From Rubritalea squalenifaciens DSM 18772 (GTDB taxonomy: Bacteria > Verrucomicrobiota > Verrucomicrobiia > Verrucomicrobiales > Akkermansiaceae), in assembly GCF_900141815.1 (NCBI RefSeq), contig NZ_FQYR01000004.1:558001-622000 (forward strand): a stretch of 64,000 bases of DNA, in the 5' to 3' direction. Positions 54,023 to 59,973 of this stretch are shown here, piece after piece. Position 1 is the first letter of the stretch, and every line of letters begins with the position of its first letter. Position numbers and translations under genes: made by a program. The notes under the pieces were generated by a model. That model was given only the letters and a program-made list of their open reading frames with translations. It did not search any database and was not told where the DNA came from.

Positions 54023-54039
54023 AAGGTATGCTATACCTT
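54023..54039 (+). promoter_or_regulatory. operator-like inverted repeat before phnW
   Basis: AAGGTAT-GCT-ATACCTT: perfect 7-bp arms with a 3-nt centre, ending 7 bp before the phnW ATG at 54047. The position would block transcription or translation initiation. No similar site was spotted elsewhere in the window. The regulator is unknown. Confidence 0.45.
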
Positions 54040-54046
54040 ACTAGCC

Positions 54047-55195
54047 ATGAGTAATTCGATTGATTCTACTTCCCTAGAGAATCCTTACATTTTGCTGACT
54101 CCGGGGCCACTATCTACTAGTCCAACAGTCAGAGCCACCTTGGTACGTGATTGGTGTACTTGGGACGATGATTACAATCTGGGAGTGGTGACTCCCATTC
54201 GTGAGGGGCTCGTGAACTTGGCATCCTCAATAGCGCCGGAGAAATTCACTTCTATTTTGATGCAGGGAAGTGGAACTTTTTCGGTGGAGAGTATGATTGG
54301 TTCTGTGGTGCCGGAAACAGGTAAACTCCTAGTACTTGCCAATGGGGCTTATGGTGACCGTCTTGCGAAGATTGCCCAGTACCTGAAGATCAATCACATC
54401 GTGCATGACAGTGGGGAACTTGAGAGGCCGGATCTGGAGAAGCTGGAAAAGGCTCTTGATGCGGATGCTGAGATCTCTCACGTAGTGGTCGTGCATAATG
54501 AGACAACCACGGGCATGATGAATCCATTGGAAGATATTGCGCGGCTTGTCAAAAATGCAGGTAGAATTTTTATGGTGGATAGCATGAGCGCTTTCGGCGG
54601 TGTGCCTCTGGACATGGAAGAGCTGCAGATCGACTTTCTCGTCTCCAGTGCGAATAAATGCATACAAGGTGTGCCAGGGTTTGGCTTTATTCTCTGCCGC
54701 ATTTCAGAGCTTGAGAAAACGCAAGGCATAGCGCGTTCACTCAGTCTCGACCTTTATGCTCAGTGGCGAGGGATGGAGGATGGACATGGAAAGTGGAGAT
54801 TTACCAGTCCGACTCATGTGACCCGAGCCTTCTATCAGGCGATGATGGAACTTGAGGAAGAGGGCGGAGTTGCTGCCCGGTATAAGCGCTATTGTGAGAA
54901 CCAACGCAGGCTGGTGACTGGCATGGAGAGGCTTGGCTTCCGCTGTGTACTGCCGGAGGCCTATCAAGGTCCGATCATCACTGGATTCCATGAGCCTGAT
55001 GATGAAACGTATACCTTCCAGAAGTTTTACGATCTTCTCAAAGAGAAGGGCTTTGTGATCTATCCTGGTAAGGTGACGGGTATCGATTCCTTCCGTATAG
55101 GCACGATCGGTCACGTCTTCCCAGAGGATATTGACCGCTTGATCGAGGCAGTTTCTGAATCCATGTACTGGACGAAGTCTGGCGCAGCGCTCTAA
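54047..55195 (+). CDS. phnW: 2-aminoethylphosphonate--pyruvate transaminase
   Basis: PLP enzyme of 382 aa from the ATG at 54047; an earlier in-frame ATG (53981) would read through the operator. It carries PhnW hallmarks in order: LLTPGPLS, VRDWCTWDDDYN, LMQGSGTFSVESM, HNETTTG, DSMSAFGGVPLD, SSANKCIQGVPGFGF (Lys204, PLP) and SLSLDLYAQWRGMEDGHGKWRFTSPTHV. It converts 2-aminoethylphosphonate and pyruvate to phosphonoacetaldehyde and alanine in the cytoplasm. Neither phnX nor phnY/phnA lies in the window. Followed after 25 bp by a flavo-folate enzyme on the same strand. Confidence 0.93.
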   Translation: MSNSIDSTSLENPYILLTPGPLSTSPTVRATLVRDWCTWDDDYNLGVVTPIREGLVNLASSIAPEKFTSILMQGSGTFSVESMIGSVVPETGKLLVLANGAYGDRLAKIAQYLKINHIVHDSGELERPDLEKLEKALDADAEISHVVVVHNETTTGMMNPLEDIARLVKNAGRIFMVDSMSAFGGVPLDMEELQIDFLVSSANKCIQGVPGFGFILCRISELEKTQGIARSLSLDLYAQWRGMEDGHGKWRFTSPTHVTRAFYQAMMELEEEGGVAARYKRYCENQRRLVTGMERLGFRCVLPEAYQGPIITGFHEPDDETYTFQKFYDLLKEKGFVIYPGKVTGIDSFRIGTIGHVFPEDIDRLIEAVSESMYWTKSGAAL

Positions 55196-55220
55196 CTGAA
55201 CATTTATATCTCAGGGTCAA

Positions 55221-57740
55221 ATGGTTCAGACATTGTTTGATAACACGCCGGTCAAAGCCAATTTTGAAGTTCCCGAGAGTGACCTTCCGAAGTCCGCTCG
55301 AGTGGTTATTGTGGGGGGAGGGATCGCGGGAGCTTCAATGGCTTATTTATTGGCGAAGCAAGGCTGGTCGGATATTGTCTTGCTAGAGCAAAGCAAATTG
55401 GCTTCGGGTACTACTTGGCATTCAGCCGGGCAGGTGGGGCAGCTACGGGCGAGTTCTGCCCAGACTAAGGTGAACAAAGCCTCGGTGGAGATTTTTTCAT
55501 CGTTGAAAGAGGATACAGGTCATGACCCCGGCTGGTTGCAGTGCGGCGGTTTACAGCTCGCGTCATGTGATGAACGCATGAATCAGCTGCAGCGTAATGC
55601 CGCGATGGCAGATGTCTTCGGGGTGGAAGCCCAGATGATTTCGGCTGAAGAGTGTCAGCAATACTGGTCCATGCTCAATACAGGTGACTTAAAGGGGGGG
55701 ATCTATCTGCCGGGAGACGGTAGAGTGCTTCCAGGAGAATGTGTTATATCATTGGCTAAAGGAGCCCTTCAGCGAGGTGTTAAGATCATTGAAGGCGTGG
55801 AAGTTTCGTCTTTGCTTTATGAGGATAAAGGTTCCGGGGTTAAACGCATCACAGGCGTATGTACGAACAAAGGTGAGGTGAAAGCTGAGTGGGTGGTGCT
55901 CGCTGGCAATATGTGGATGAGGCAGTTGGCGATGACTATCGGTGTCGATGTGCCGCTTTATCCCTGCGAGCACCACTATGTGATCACCAAGCCTATCGAG
56001 GGAGTGACAAGGAACAGTCCTTGTACGCGCGACCCCAATGCTGGTCTGTACTTCCGTGCTCTTGATGATGGCGGATTGAAATTAGGCGCCTTCAAGAAAA
56101 GGTCAAAGCCCTGGCAGGTGGGAGACAAGGTGCCGAGCCAGTTTGCTTTTGATTTGTTAGAGCCAGATTGGCCTGATTTTGAGGAGCCGTTTGCTGACCA
56201 CATGCATCGCCTCAAGGGGATTTCCAGAGAGGATGTCGTGAAGTTTGTGAATGGCCCCGAGGCGTTTACAGCGGATAATAATTTTATCATGGGTGAGCCA
56301 TTCGGTACTGAGGGACTTTTTGTCTTGGGTGGCTGGAACTCTGCGGGGATTGCCTGTTCTGCCGGTGCCGCCAAGTATGCAGTCGAGTGGATCGAGAATG
56401 GCGGAATGACCATGGATCTGGGGAGTGTGGATATCAGGCGCTTCATGCCGTTCCAGAACGGGAGAAAATATCTTCAGGAACGTGTGAGCGAAGTCCTGGG
56501 CCTCCACTATCAGATGGCATGGCCTGGTCGTCAGATGGAAACGGCGAGAAACGTACGCCATAGTGCCTTTTATGAGAAGCATAAGTCCCTGAATGCCTGC
56601 TTTGGTGAGACTGCAGGCTGGGAGAGGCCATTATTCTATGCTCCAGTGGATGAGAAAGCGGAGATTGAGTATTCTTTCTTACGCCAGAACTGGCAGAAGT
56701 GGACCGCGGAAGAGGTTAAATCCTGTCGTGAGAGTGTAGCATTGTTAGACCAATCGACCTTTGCCAAGTATCTATTCCAAGGCAGGGATGTGGTTGGGAT
56801 TCTTCAGTGGCTTTGTGGTGCCAATGTTGATGTCGAAGTCTGTAAGACGGTGTATACGGGGATGTTCAATGAGCGGGGGACCTTTGAGAGTGACCTGACA
56901 TTGGTTCGTCTTGCTGAAGATTCATATTACATCGTCACCGCTACGGGACAGCAGCGCAAAGACTTCGATTGGATCACACGGCATATTCCTGAGGGTTCTC
57001 AGGCTCAGCTGACGGATGTCACCGAGCAATGGAGTGTGGTGTCAGTGATGGGGCCGAACAGCCGAAAGGTCTTGGAAAGGCTGAGTACAGCGGATTTTAG
57101 CAATGAGGCATTTCCATTTGGTGTCTCCCGAGAGATTCATGTTGGTATTCATCAGGTGAGGGCGATTCGTCTCACTTACGTTGGTGAGCTAGGTTGGGAA
57201 TTACACGTGCCAGTGGCCCAGGCATCGTATGTCTGGGACGAGCTCATGCAAGCTGGCCGGGAATTCGGCATAAAGCCTGCCGGGAATAATGCGATCAGTA
57301 CCATGCGCATAGAAAAAGCGTACCGTGCATATGGCCATGAACTCTCACCAGATGAGACCCCACTGATGGCAGGACTGAGCTTTGCGATCGACTGGGATAC
57401 GGATTTCTTGGGGAAAGAGGCTTTGCTGCAAGCGAAGGAAAAGGAGCTCAGCAAGCGCTTGGTGAACTTTGTCCTGGATGATGATAGTGCAGTGCTTTGG
57501 GGGAATGAGCCGATTTATTGGGGTGAGCACTTGGTGGGCTACACTACGAGTGCTGCCTATAGCCCCACCCTAGGACGTTCTATCGCCATGGGCTACGTGA
57601 GTCATCCTCAGGGCTCTGCGATCAAGGCGTCTGATCTGAAGGGTGCTGATTTTAGTATTCTCAATTTAGGGGTGAAATACCCAGCAAAGGCATCACTTTC
57701 ACCCGCATACGACCCCAAGAGACTTAAGGTGCTTGGTTAG
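55221..57740 (+). CDS. dimethylglycine/sarcosine dehydrogenase-like FAD and folate enzyme
   Basis: Protein of 839 aa. The N-terminal DAO domain has the FAD motif VGGGIAGA (31-38) and TTWHSAGQ with His67 in the position where DMGDH and related enzymes bind FAD covalently. A linking FAO-type domain (about 370-425) is followed by a GcvT (aminomethyltransferase) fold (about 430-835) that in this family takes the methyl carbon onto tetrahydrofolate (LGWELHVP, GNNAISTMRIEKAYRAYGHEL). It likely oxidises an N-methylated amine. The 25-bp gap after phnW suggests an N-methylated aminoethylphosphonate; dimethylglycine or sarcosine remains possible. Its 3' end overlaps convergent modC by 17 bp. Confidence 0.88.
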   Translation: MVQTLFDNTPVKANFEVPESDLPKSARVVIVGGGIAGASMAYLLAKQGWSDIVLLEQSKLASGTTWHSAGQVGQLRASSAQTKVNKASVEIFSSLKEDTGHDPGWLQCGGLQLASCDERMNQLQRNAAMADVFGVEAQMISAEECQQYWSMLNTGDLKGGIYLPGDGRVLPGECVISLAKGALQRGVKIIEGVEVSSLLYEDKGSGVKRITGVCTNKGEVKAEWVVLAGNMWMRQLAMTIGVDVPLYPCEHHYVITKPIEGVTRNSPCTRDPNAGLYFRALDDGGLKLGAFKKRSKPWQVGDKVPSQFAFDLLEPDWPDFEEPFADHMHRLKGISREDVVKFVNGPEAFTADNNFIMGEPFGTEGLFVLGGWNSAGIACSAGAAKYAVEWIENGGMTMDLGSVDIRRFMPFQNGRKYLQERVSEVLGLHYQMAWPGRQMETARNVRHSAFYEKHKSLNACFGETAGWERPLFYAPVDEKAEIEYSFLRQNWQKWTAEEVKSCRESVALLDQSTFAKYLFQGRDVVGILQWLCGANVDVEVCKTVYTGMFNERGTFESDLTLVRLAEDSYYIVTATGQQRKDFDWITRHIPEGSQAQLTDVTEQWSVVSVMGPNSRKVLERLSTADFSNEAFPFGVSREIHVGIHQVRAIRLTYVGELGWELHVPVAQASYVWDELMQAGREFGIKPAGNNAISTMRIEKAYRAYGHELSPDETPLMAGLSFAIDWDTDFLGKEALLQAKEKELSKRLVNFVLDDDSAVLWGNEPIYWGEHLVGYTTSAAYSPTLGRSIAMGYVSHPQGSAIKASDLKGADFSILNLGVKYPAKASLSPAYDPKRLKVLG

Positions 57741-58365
57741 GTTGTAGGTCGCCCAGCTTGATGACTTTGTCTGAGAGCTGGGTGGCCTCTTTCATGCTGT
57801 GAGTGATGTGGAGAGCTGTGATGCCTTCGTTCTGAATAGAGTCTTTGAGTAGGCTTAGTATTTCGTCGTGGGTGTCATCATCTAGTCCAGTCAGGGCTTC
57901 GTCCAGGCAAAGCAGTGCGGGGCGTGTAGCCAAGGCCCTGCCAAGAGCGACGCGTTTTGCTTCTCCTCCAGATAAGTTGGAGGGATAGCGGTCTAGCAGA
58001 TGACTGATGGACATGCCTTCGGCCAGATGGTTTATTCTCTGGTCAATTTCAGATTGGTTCCACTTCTGGATGCTAGGGCCAAATGCCAGATGCTCTCTCA
58101 CTGTGAGATGCGGAAACAAGGCATTGTCTTGAGGGACAATGGAGAGCTTCCTTTCTGATGGTCTCAGGTGAGTGATGTCCTGGTTATTCAGGAGAATGGT
58201 GCCTGAAGTGATTTTTCGCAGACCGCAAATGGCCTCCATGATGGTAGTCTTACCTGAACCGCTGGGACCCATCAGTGAGGTGCAGGTGCCGGATTCTACG
58301 GTGAAGGAGATATCCTTCAATTTGAACTGACCGGATTCGATGCTGATGCTTTCGATGCTTAACAT
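57724..58365 (-). CDS. modC: ABC transporter ATPase, molybdate-type
   Basis: Protein of 213 aa with Walker A GPSGSGKT (33-40), signature LSGGEAKRVALGRALA, Walker B LLCLDEALTGLDDD and switch His in ITHS. It is shorter than ModC proteins with the C-terminal molybdate-binding TOBE domain, which is missing here. Assignment to molybdate comes mainly from its partners. Third gene of modABC; 9 bp after modB. Overlaps the 3' end of the convergent flavo-folate gene. Confidence 0.85.
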   Translation of the reverse strand: MLSIESISIESGQFKLKDISFTVESGTCTSLMGPSGSGKTTIMEAICGLRKITSGTILLNNQDITHLRPSERKLSIVPQDNALFPHLTVREHLAFGPSIQKWNQSEIDQRINHLAEGMSISHLLDRYPSNLSGGEAKRVALGRALATRPALLCLDEALTGLDDDTHDEILSLLKDSIQNEGITALHITHSMKEATQLSDKVIKLGDLQPNQAP

Positions 58366-58374
58366 AGTCTGAGG

Positions 58375-59199
58375 TCAGTTGTTAGAGGTTCGGCTGCCAA
58401 GGAAGCGAAGCAAGGAAATAGTGCTGAGAGACAAAAGGATGAGAACTAAGGATATGGCTGCGGCGCCAGGGAGGTTACCCGTATTGATCTCTAGGAAAAT
58501 GGAGGTAGAGAGGACTTCGGTTTTGCCGCGCGTGGCTCCTGCAAAAATCAGGATGGGGCCGAACTCGCCCAGCGCTCGTGCCCAGGCTAGGAGACCAGCT
58601 GCCAGGATGCCGGGTTGCGCTTGGGGTAGACAGATTTTCCAGAATGCCTGAAAGCGATTGCAGCCAAGGGTGAGTGCTATGTGTTCAGTTCGCTCGGGTA
58701 GTTGGTCAAAAGTGACTTTCAAGCTTCGGGTGGCGAAGGCGGTAATGATGGTGAACTGAGCGAGTATGATGGCAGGGACGTGGAAGGTGACCGCTGTTCC
58801 TTGGCCGTTCAGCAGCCTCTCGAGCGAGTTCTCCGAGGATGGAAGGCTGTTAAACAAAATCAGCAGCGAGAGTCCTACGACGATCGGTGGAAGTACGATC
58901 GGTATATCAAGCAGCGTGTCGATCACGCTGCGGCCCCGGAATCTGAAGCGTGACAGTGAGTACGACAAGGGCACCGATACAAAGAGAGCAAGGATGCTGG
59001 ACGCCGTGCAGGTCAGGAAGGTGAGTTTTAGGGACTGAAGAATCGCTGGGCTTTGCAATGTCTCGGTGAACGTTTCCCAAGTCAGAAAGCTAGCGCAGGC
59101 TAGCACCAGCAAGGTGAGGAGCGCTACATAGGCGCCACCAATCAGCGAGATGCTGCCGTAGAAAGGAAGGTCGGATCGAGTTGGCTTGAGGTGCTTCAT
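58375..59199 (-). CDS. modB: ABC transporter permease, molybdate-type
   Basis: Protein of 274 aa with about six helices. The EAA motif region ALGCNRFQAFWKICLPQAQPGILAAGLLAWARALGEFGPILIFAG matches ModB/CysT-type permeases, including the ARALGEFG block. Starts 3 bp after modA and 9 bp before modC. Sulfate, tungstate or molybdate permeases look alike. Confidence 0.9.
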   Translation of the reverse strand: MKHLKPTRSDLPFYGSISLIGGAYVALLTLLVLACASFLTWETFTETLQSPAILQSLKLTFLTCTASSILALFVSVPLSYSLSRFRFRGRSVIDTLLDIPIVLPPIVVGLSLLILFNSLPSSENSLERLLNGQGTAVTFHVPAIILAQFTIITAFATRSLKVTFDQLPERTEHIALTLGCNRFQAFWKICLPQAQPGILAAGLLAWARALGEFGPILIFAGATRGKTEVLSTSIFLEINTGNLPGAAAISLVLILLSLSTISLLRFLGSRTSNN

Positions 59200-59202
59200 G
59201 AG

Positions 59203-59973
59203 TTAGTCGGCTGCTACGGAGCCGAAGCCGTATTTCCTGAAGGTTTGTTTACTGCTCTCCTCTTCTGTGAGGTAGCTGACAAACTGTCTGGCGAGCTTCA
59301 CTTGTGTGGAGGATTTGAGGATAGCAATCGAAGTGGTCTGTGGTTTGTTCGCAAAAAGCGGGAGAGGGATGATCTTGAGTTCCTTGTTCTGAAGGGCTAC
59401 TGCATCCCAGGCGATGGTGGCATCTACGGCTCCGAGAGAGACATCCTCTACGGTGTTATTCACGGTGGGTTTGATGACGGTGATGTTTTTCTCAATGGCT
59501 GCCCAGTCTTCCGAGTCATGCAGAACCTGTCGCGTGAATTTTCCGATGGCGGCATTCTCCACCGCAAAGGATAGTCGGATGTCCTCACGTTTTAGATCGT
59601 CCAGTGCGAGGATGTTGTGTTCTTCACCACGTAAGACGAGAACTGCGGTCATGCTGCTGGTGGGGTGTGTCGCGGTAATCAAGTGTGAGGCTTGGTCCAG
59701 ATAATCAGCGGTCGCAGGGAGATAGAGGTCACCGCCACTCAGCTGAAGTTGGCTGAGCAAGGCTCCAGAGCCATTAAACACGAGCCTGATCGTGATGTCA
59801 TGCTCGGCTTCGAATCGTTCAGCGATCTCAGTCATCGGGGATCGAAGGCTAGCCGCGCAGTAGACTGTGAGACTCGGCTTGTTCTGGCTGGATTCCAGCG
59901 ATGGCCAAAGGGCCCAGAGACAGGCTGCGAGTACCGTCAGAAGAACAGCAACGATTGGGAAAGGTGATTTCAT
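59203..59973 (-). CDS. modA: molybdate-binding periplasmic protein
   Basis: Protein of 256 aa. The leader ends in a possible lipobox (LAAC, Cys18), though hydrophobic residues continue after it, so either a lipoprotein or signal peptidase I site is possible. The mature part has the ModA layout: YCAASLRSPMTEIAERFE, FNGSGALLSQLQLSGGDLYLPA and later SLGAVDATIAWD. The usual DVF(I/A)SAD block is altered to LYLPATADY. First gene of modABC; divergent from the GntR regulator. Confidence 0.9.
   Translation of the reverse strand: MKSPFPIVAVLLTVLAACLWALWPSLESSQNKPSLTVYCAASLRSPMTEIAERFEAEHDITIRLVFNGSGALLSQLQLSGGDLYLPATADYLDQASHLITATHPTSSMTAVLVLRGEEHNILALDDLKREDIRLSFAVENAAIGKFTRQVLHDSEDWAAIEKNITVIKPTVNNTVEDVSLGAVDATIAWDAVALQNKELKIIPLPLFANKPQTTSIAILKSSTQVKLARQFVSYLTEEESSKQTFRKYGFGSVAAD

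Follow-up and report, generated by a model that had tools for sequence, protein, structure and literature searches.

A DMGDH-type flavo-folate enzyme encoded beside phnW in Rubritalea squalenifaciens: a candidate demethylase of N-methylated 2-aminoethylphosphonate

Introduction

What does a folate-coupled amine dehydrogenase act on when its gene lies directly behind phnW, the gene for 2-aminoethylphosphonate (AEP)-pyruvate transaminase? The question is raised by a gene pair of Rubritalea squalenifaciens DSM 18772 (Verrucomicrobiota), located in a stretch of 64,000 nucleotides, hereafter the window, from contig NZ_FQYR01000004.1 (positions 558,001 to 622,000, forward strand). A preliminary description of this DNA had proposed that the 839-aa product of the second gene, which resembles dimethylglycine dehydrogenase (DMGDH), demethylates N-methylated AEP before PhnW acts, with capture of the removed methyl by tetrahydrofolate (THF). 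We consider it probable that the enzyme couples FAD-dependent N-demethylation of N,N-dimethyl- and/or N-methyl-AEP to folate and feeds AEP to PhnW, PhnY and PhnA; we infer its substrate, the order of the steps and the folate product from genes, protein families, recurrent linkage and kept residues.

As described in the main text of Zangelmi et al. 2023 (PMC10590968), N-methyl-AEP, which is common in nature, is not usable by PhnW. The same text describes the FAD enzymes PbfB, PbfC and PbfD, encoded beside phnWX or phnWYA genes or phnX; PbfC and PbfD convert N-methyl-AEP to phosphonoacetaldehyde and methylamine, with no formaldehyde, and their flavin is probably not covalently bound. A single route is stated there to be known for trimethyl-AEP, a form on which none of the paper's FAD enzymes act. 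That main text mentions neither GcvT nor folate; however, a GcvT-bearing member may be present among the 260 PF01266 proteins of AEP clusters collected in the study, since the alignments were trimmed to that FAD domain and the sequence tables are in the supplement. A 2023 review (PMC10574752) lists, in the sections concerned, the Pbf enzymes together with TmpA/TmpB, and the accessible text of PMC12366243 and PMC12478193 holds nothing on a flavo-folate enzyme of this kind. Among the main texts of the open-licence PMC literature, no report was found of a GcvT-type or flavo-folate enzyme, or of a Rieske demethylase, in phosphonate catabolism.

Results

Coordinates and Pfam domains of the gene pair agree with the preliminary description, which had placed phnW and a DMGDH-like gene with FAD, His67 and GcvT features 25 bp apart on one strand (Table 1). 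The phnW frame is read from the ATG at 54047, the open reading frame listing beginning it at an upstream TTG instead, and by its score the product belongs to TIGR02326. The top PDB match of PhnW is 9kk8, an AEP-pyruvate transaminase (E 5e-142); the stretch SSANKCIQG is identical in 9kk8 and 1m32, and the Lys position is Met in 9kka. The 839-aa frame likewise starts with ATG. The window itself lacks phnY and phnA, as had been stated: tblastn with relatives' proteins detected no PhnY, PhnA, PurU, DUF5690 or Rieske protein in it at E ≤ 1e-3.

Table 1. Positions of the features discussed. Window positions are given unless a locus label precedes them; clade and outside rows are those of the tree described in the text.
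Feature	Position	Strand	Evidence or remark
Inverted repeat AAGGTAT-GCT-ATACCTT	54023..54039	.	Just 5' of phnW start; possible operator, not supported
phnW (AEP-pyruvate transaminase, 382 aa)	54047..55195	+	TIGR02326, 546.7 bits against cut-off 400.8
Flavo-folate enzyme of DMGDH type (839 aa), candidate demethylase of N-methylated AEP	55221..57740	+	Pfam architecture; rat DMGDH 4pab, E 2.2e-122; AlphaFold2 model
DAO (FAD amine-oxidising) domain, residues 27-390	55299..56390	+	PF01266, 228.5 bits
His67, FAD-linking His position of DMGDH (assumed role)	55419..55421	+	His in 21/21 covering clade rows (2 partial clade rows do not cover the position) and 21/21 outside rows
Lys292, clade-specific	56094..56096	+	Clade (23 rows): Lys in 17, Gln in 6; outside (21 rows): Glu in 20, Ala in 1
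FAO_M central domain, residues 393-448	56397..56564	+	PF16350, 65.2 bits
GCV_T folate-binding domain, residues 450-721, with Asp558 (DMGO Asp552)	56568..57383	+	PF01571, 263.7 bits
GCV_T_C barrel, residues 745-831	57453..57713	+	PF08669, 66.6 bits
ModC-ModB-ModA, molybdate-type ABC transporter genes	57724-59973		Convergent with the DMGDH-like gene, overlapping its end by 17 nt
DUF5690 genes of other genomes	L087:11458-12777; L021:6968-8272; L018:12787-14094; L176:14659-16191		PF18943

All four domains of the 839-aa enzyme score above their Pfam cut-offs in one chain, which is the architecture of DMGDH and DMGO, and the nearest solved structures are rat and human DMGDH. An AlphaFold2 model built from 27 sequences (mean pLDDT 85.3) superimposes on human DMGDH 5l46 over 794 residues (Z 51.7, root-mean-square deviation 2.1, 31% identity) and on DMGO with Z of 47.6-48.1. 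The context of His67, TTWHSAG, aligns with STWHAAG of rat DMGDH, at a position which we take to be that of the FAD-linking histidine. Two annotation models of related oxidases do not describe the enzyme, as TIGR03364, the model that gives PbfD1 its annotation, yielded 56.3 bits (cut-off 285.1) and TIGR03329 gave 28.3 bits (cut-off 632.8).

The preliminary description had left the fate of phosphonoacetaldehyde open, with the suggestion that phnX or phnA be sought elsewhere in the genome, and the gene content now provides an answer. A PhnA scoring 487.3 bits (cut-off 407.55) is encoded on contig C5 in the order phnA-phnY-DUF5690, the PhnY being 81% identical to that of the related genome G080, which itself reaches 625.3 bits with TIGR03250, slightly below the cut-off of 635.65. 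PhnA and PhnY, the partners of PhnW in the hydrolytic PhnWYA pathway, are thus both present. PhnX is ruled out as the next step after PhnW, as the best match in this genome is 38.8 bits against a cut-off of 220 and none of 13 genomes exceeds it, and a role of PhnW in AEP synthesis (PepM-Ppd-PhnW) is ruled out by the lack of a PepM match in the genome at E ≤ 0.001. Because phnA-phnY are present while PhnX and PepM are not detected at these thresholds, phosphonoacetaldehyde is most likely converted to phosphonoacetate and then to acetate and phosphate.

The gene neighbourhood recurs in relatives. Among 195 family genomes searched, 13 gave matches at E ≤ 1e-100, namely 12 genomes with an enzyme 53-100% identical, R. 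squalenifaciens included, and G037 with two copies at 38-39%. The neighbourhoods of all 13 were examined, names being profile-based for G080 and G058 and mostly BLAST assignments to the proteins of these two for the others. The operon of G080 reads phnA-phnY-phnW-DUF5690-DMGDHlike-purU, where DMGDHlike denotes the flavo-folate gene; G156 has the same order without purU. The order phnA-phnY-phnW-DMGDHlike is found in G082 and G130 and, interrupted by a contig end, in G181, and G117 carries phnA-phnY-phosphoesterase-phnW-DMGDHlike-DUF5690. G091 has phnW-DMGDHlike with phnA-phnY elsewhere, as in R. squalenifaciens, and in G058 phnA-phnY-DUF5690 is followed by one opposite gene and then DMGDHlike-purU, with phnW on another contig.

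A scan of named genomes added five carriers beyond the 195, namely Arenibacter algicola and Snuella sedimenti (Bacteroidota, 68-69%), a Pirellulaceae genome (G197, 66%) and two Verrucomicrobiaceae metagenome-assembled genomes, in both of which phnW lies immediately 5' of the DMGDH-like gene. In the Pirellulaceae genome, phnA-phnY-phnW lie divergently beside the gene, and because this PhnW is only 47% like that of the window, a recent shared block does not by itself account for the linkage. PhnA exceeds its cut-off in all five added carriers; PhnW exceeds that of TIGR02326 in three, the two Bacteroidota proteins reaching 347-351 bits, with that of Snuella passing TIGR03301. Combined, 17 genomes of Verrucomicrobiota, Planctomycetota and Bacteroidota, R. 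squalenifaciens included, carry the 53-100% enzyme, with PhnA over cut-off in 15 of them. The proposed survey for phnW beside DMGDH-like genes in relatives is thereby answered, and in favour of the preliminary proposal, which a lack of such conservation would have counted against: phnW, phnY or phnA lies within 10 kb of the enzyme gene in 13/17 carriers, in varying gene orders. purU adjoins the enzyme gene in four genomes, identified by the NCBIfam PurU model in two and, in the two Bacteroidota, by BLAST at 40-43%, one of these also by Pfam.

Presence of the enzyme is associated with that of the pathway genes across the 195 family genomes. PhnA over cut-off occurs in 34, 10/12 carriers against 24/183 others (Fisher test 3.9e-7, ignoring kinship), and PhnW at E ≤ 1e-80 in 28, 11/12 carriers against 17/183 others (8e-10, likewise ignoring kinship), two of the 11 having a divergent form in genomes with pepM. 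In a tree of 44 rows, made by a quick method with SH-aLRT support only and with long outgroup branches, the linked rows fall in a clade of 23 rows (SH-aLRT 96). A phn gene lies within 10 kb in 16/21 clade rows, two contig-end rows being left out, against 1/19 rows outside, a count which omits rat DMGDH and DMGO. The sole linked outside row is from G037 (38-39% identity, phnW 5.7 kb away), and sequences below ~49% identity, with phnW within 10 kb in just this one of 19 rows, were therefore not credited with the same role. Of the clade rows, five are unlinked; they belong to Arenibacter, Snuella, G213 and G230, the last with two copies, and each of these four genomes has phnA elsewhere. Of 36 loci of the named-genome scan the tree took 19; ten others came from genomes already represented. 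A further seven (L130, L134, L135 and L137-L140, at 28-40% identity, from Acidimicrobiales, Acidimicrobiaceae and a gammaproteobacterium), in which no PhnW, PhnA or PhnY match was seen, were incomplete or redundant and were not used.

Residues of both halves of the enzyme are kept in the clade. His251 and Tyr277, equivalent to DMGO His225 and Tyr259 and presumably an active-site pair, are present in all covering clade rows, and Asp558, Tyr653 and Glu660 of the folate domain, equivalent to DMGO Asp552, Tyr651 and Glu658 and assumed to have the same roles, in 22/22 covering clade rows; one of the structures matched is titled DMGO D552A with THF. In the FAD half, 24 positions divide the clade from the remaining rows without overlap. 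One of these is position 292, which is Glu in rat DMGDH and Ala in DMGO and which in the AlphaFold2 model is predicted to lie two residues past the strand that follows the strand of Tyr277. Lys or Gln at this position gives only a hint of a site that may be adapted to a more negative substrate.

A sister group occurs in Planctomycetes. A search of 346 genomes at order level returned six genomes with matches at E ≤ 1e-150, the Pirellulaceae genome above and five with an enzyme at 49-52% identity (G289, G246, G382, G230 and G213). All five also encode a Rieske protein like betaine demethylases and a second FAD amine oxidase, and in four phnA and phnY lie in the block or on the contig of the Rieske gene, the fifth (G382) having phnW beside the enzyme. 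G289 carries phnA-phnY-phnW-MFS-Rieske-AAA-oxidase-DMGDHlike on one strand. In G246 two blocks lie on one contig, phnA-phnY-phnW and DUF5690-Rieske with oxidase-DMGDHlike; G382 has phnW-DMGDHlike-oxidase, with the Rieske gene on another contig and an oxidase that differs in kind, with 29% likeness to the G289 oxidase. In G230 and G213 no phn genes accompany the DMGDH-like gene in the stretches examined, a Rieske-oxidase-phnA-phnY block lying elsewhere; phnW is absent from the stretches with this block, the part of both genomes that was searched for PhnW.

Rieske oxygenases of this kind take one methyl off a quaternary amine. The protein of G289 is not GbcA by the rule of the model, because it scores 390.8 bits against a cut-off of 670; its top structure matches are 3vca, 3n0q and 4qup, the last named a demethylase, all of which we take to act on stachydrine-type betaines. 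The Rieske protein occurs in 16/346 genomes, in 5/5 with the 49-52% enzyme against 11/341 others, G197, with the 66% enzyme and no Rieske protein, being counted among the 341 (Fisher test 1.1e-7, ignoring kinship). By itself it is no marker of phosphonate use, as phnA and phnY are present in the stretch examined in just 4/15 Rieske surroundings (G289, G246, G230 and G213; G219 is not among the 15), and three other Rieske loci (G382, G468 and G221) are on contigs of only 3-8 kb. Considered together and by analogy, Rieske protein, DMGDH-like enzyme and amine oxidase present the three-step logic of betaine breakdown among phosphonate genes. A separate observation concerns G037 (L030:9378-13213), in which a 37% DMGDH-like gene adjoins the gene of a Rieske protein sharing 58% identity with the G289 protein, on a contig without phn genes.

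Other genes of these loci were also noted. DUF5690 genes are present in 12 of the phn loci examined, with or without the DMGDH-like gene, those not listed in Table 1 having been assigned by BLAST at 37-65% likeness to the protein of L021, and at L210, L212 and L217 DUF5690 adjoins a Rieske gene with no phn genes present; the protein is a candidate for the import of aminophosphonates or quaternary amines. Single-domain FAD amine oxidases, Pbf-like by position, lie beside phnA-phnY-phnW in Snuella (L184:7988-9208) and Arenibacter (L185:11443-12660). In G049 and G086 a divergent PhnW is contained in a 665-aa frame (L093:1980-3974 and L094:7265-9259), adjoined by pepM in G086, which fits phosphonate biosynthesis.

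Two features flanking the gene pair were considered. The inverted repeat reported ahead of phnW is indeed present but uninformative, as perfect 7-bp arms with a 3-nt spacer occur at seven sites in the window, with ~4 expected by simple arithmetic, and the exact motif occurs in 2/186 loci compared, both copies of this same place. It was also missing from the phnA-phnY locus in this genome when up to three mismatches were allowed. A shared operator is thus unsupported, similar repeats being not rare in the window and the motif missing from the other places searched. The adjoining ABC transporter was rejected as a phosphonate importer and is taken as molybdate-type because its binding protein scores 66.9 bits with ModA, above the cut-off of 62.5.

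Discussion

The results support PhnW and the flavo-folate enzyme as a route for N-methylated AEP, as first proposed. In this route the FAD domain would oxidise an N-methyl group of N,N-dimethyl- and/or N-methyl-AEP, the iminium would pass to the GcvT domain, where THF would take the carbon as methylene-THF, and N-methyl-AEP or AEP would remain. PhnW would then convert AEP to phosphonoacetaldehyde, which PhnY, encoded on contig C5, would oxidise to phosphonoacetate for cleavage by PhnA to acetate and phosphate. Where a host has a second oxidase, demethylation by the flavo-folate enzyme may go no further than monomethyl-AEP. Folate capture of the methyl, also part of the preliminary description, is consistent with the kept folate residues and with the adjoining purU, whose product acts on formyl-THF and would fit one-carbon disposal.

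The Planctomycete loci suggest a wider scheme for Planctomycetota, Verrucomicrobiota and Bacteroidota, which we put forward tentatively and at somewhat below even chance. A Rieske protein would convert trimethyl- to dimethyl-AEP in Planctomycetes, the flavo-folate enzyme would proceed to monomethyl-AEP, or to AEP where a second oxidase is missing, and an oxidase or PhnW would yield phosphonoacetaldehyde for PhnY and PhnA. If true, the glycine-betaine pathway has been rebuilt for phosphonates, giving a phosphonate route in which folate retains the methyl carbon. With a conserved set of demethylating enzymes it would become clear how methylated head groups can supply phosphate, nitrogen and one-carbon units, and the set provides candidate enzymes for assay.

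Three other explanations need to be weighed. The enzyme could be an ordinary dimethylglycine or sarcosine demethylase, by chance beside phnW, so that the two genes supply nitrogen and one-carbon units and do not form one pathway. Its best full-length structural relatives are indeed DMGDH and DMGO, and in betaine catabolism, too, purU is a usual neighbour; three Bacteroidota loci outside the clade (L181, L182 and L183, 37-40%) resemble a classical demethylase set, with purU and genes of ~253, 317 and 704 aa, the ~704-aa product of L181, the sole one profiled, being an Fe-S electron-transfer protein, and no phn genes in the stretch. This explanation is nevertheless unlikely, as it accounts neither for the repeated linkage and co-occurrence with phnA, phnY and phnW in rearranged orders nor for the clade-wide change at residue 292. 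In addition, R. squalenifaciens has no second long GcvT-fused amine dehydrogenase, because the only other frames with GCV_T matches, two in number, are 398 and 280 aa long; this search did not extend to single-domain sarcosine oxidase or dimethylglycine-supplying genes.

Alternatively, the enzyme could act like PbfC and PbfD, oxidising the C2-N bond of methylated AEP to give phosphonoacetaldehyde and methylamine or dimethylamine, with PhnW serving plain AEP only and the GcvT domain unused. Oxidation of this type, with no formaldehyde, is described for amine oxidases of phn clusters in the main text of PMC10590968, and it would suit the lack of PhnW in G039 and the Rieske-oxidase-phnA-phnY blocks of G230 and G213, which contain no phnW inside the stretch examined. 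Conservation of the three folate residues argues against it, since a C2-N oxidase would not need them, as does the separate single-domain oxidase available in G230, G213, G246, G289 and G382 (that of G382 being of another kind), and we regard this explanation as quite improbable. Least probable is another N-methylated compound that yields a substrate of PhnW, PhnY or PhnA, for example an N-methylated hydroxy-aminophosphonate of the kind synthesised as test compounds according to the main text of PMC10590968: sequence cannot reveal specificity, but it is phnA, phnY and phnW that recur among the phn genes, and no hydroxy-AEP lyase was seen among the neighbours profiled, which were some of the total and were not searched with a PbfA model.

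Several observations weigh against N-demethylation followed by PhnW. The phnA-phnY genes of R. squalenifaciens lie on a different contig from the gene pair. G039 carries DMGDHlike-phnA-phnY with no PhnW in the genome (best 132 bits), a misfit unless another enzyme makes the aldehyde, and G230 and G213 may bypass PhnW by way of the single-domain oxidase. G049 and G086, in which the gene is at contig ends, have pepM and no PhnA over cut-off. Both Bacteroidota lack phn genes within 10 kb of the enzyme gene, phnA lying ~17 kb off on the same contig in Snuella and on another contig in Arenibacter. Conversely, five family genomes (G171, G013, G052, G059 and G046) have phnA-phnY-phnW without the enzyme, which is therefore accessory or optional, like the Pbf enzymes, and in most of the remaining genomes examined the Rieske-oxidase pair is not accompanied by phn genes. 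Finally, the counts include related genomes, and total sequence is <10 kb in 2/5 unlinked clade rows and 3/18 unlinked outside rows.

The enzyme shares with DMGDH and DMGO the full-length fold, the FAD-linking His position and the equivalents of DMGO His225, Tyr259 and Asp552. DMGDH and DMGO are only ~30% identical to it, fall outside the 23-row clade by the quick tree with its long branches, and differ at residue 292; moreover, the clade genes sit with phnW, phnY and phnA. Like PbfB, PbfC and PbfD as described in the main text of PMC10590968, it would be an accessory PF01266 amine oxidoreductase that recurs beside phn genes and acts on N-methylated AEP, whereas PbfC and PbfD release methylamine and the flavo-folate enzyme is proposed to demethylate. 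TmpA/TmpB, as cited in the sections consulted of PMC10574752 and PMC10590968, also handle N-methylated AEP, by oxidative C-P cleavage of trimethyl-AEP to phosphate and glycine betaine with the methyls retained, whereas the proposed route would demethylate first and then employ PhnY and PhnA. With the glycine betaine route of GbcAB, dimethylglycine demethylase and sarcosine oxidase, Planctomycetes share a GbcA-like Rieske protein, a DMGDH-like enzyme and a single-domain oxidase; the difference is that the Rieske protein scores below the GbcA cut-off and that the Planctomycete set lies among phnA-phnY(-phnW).

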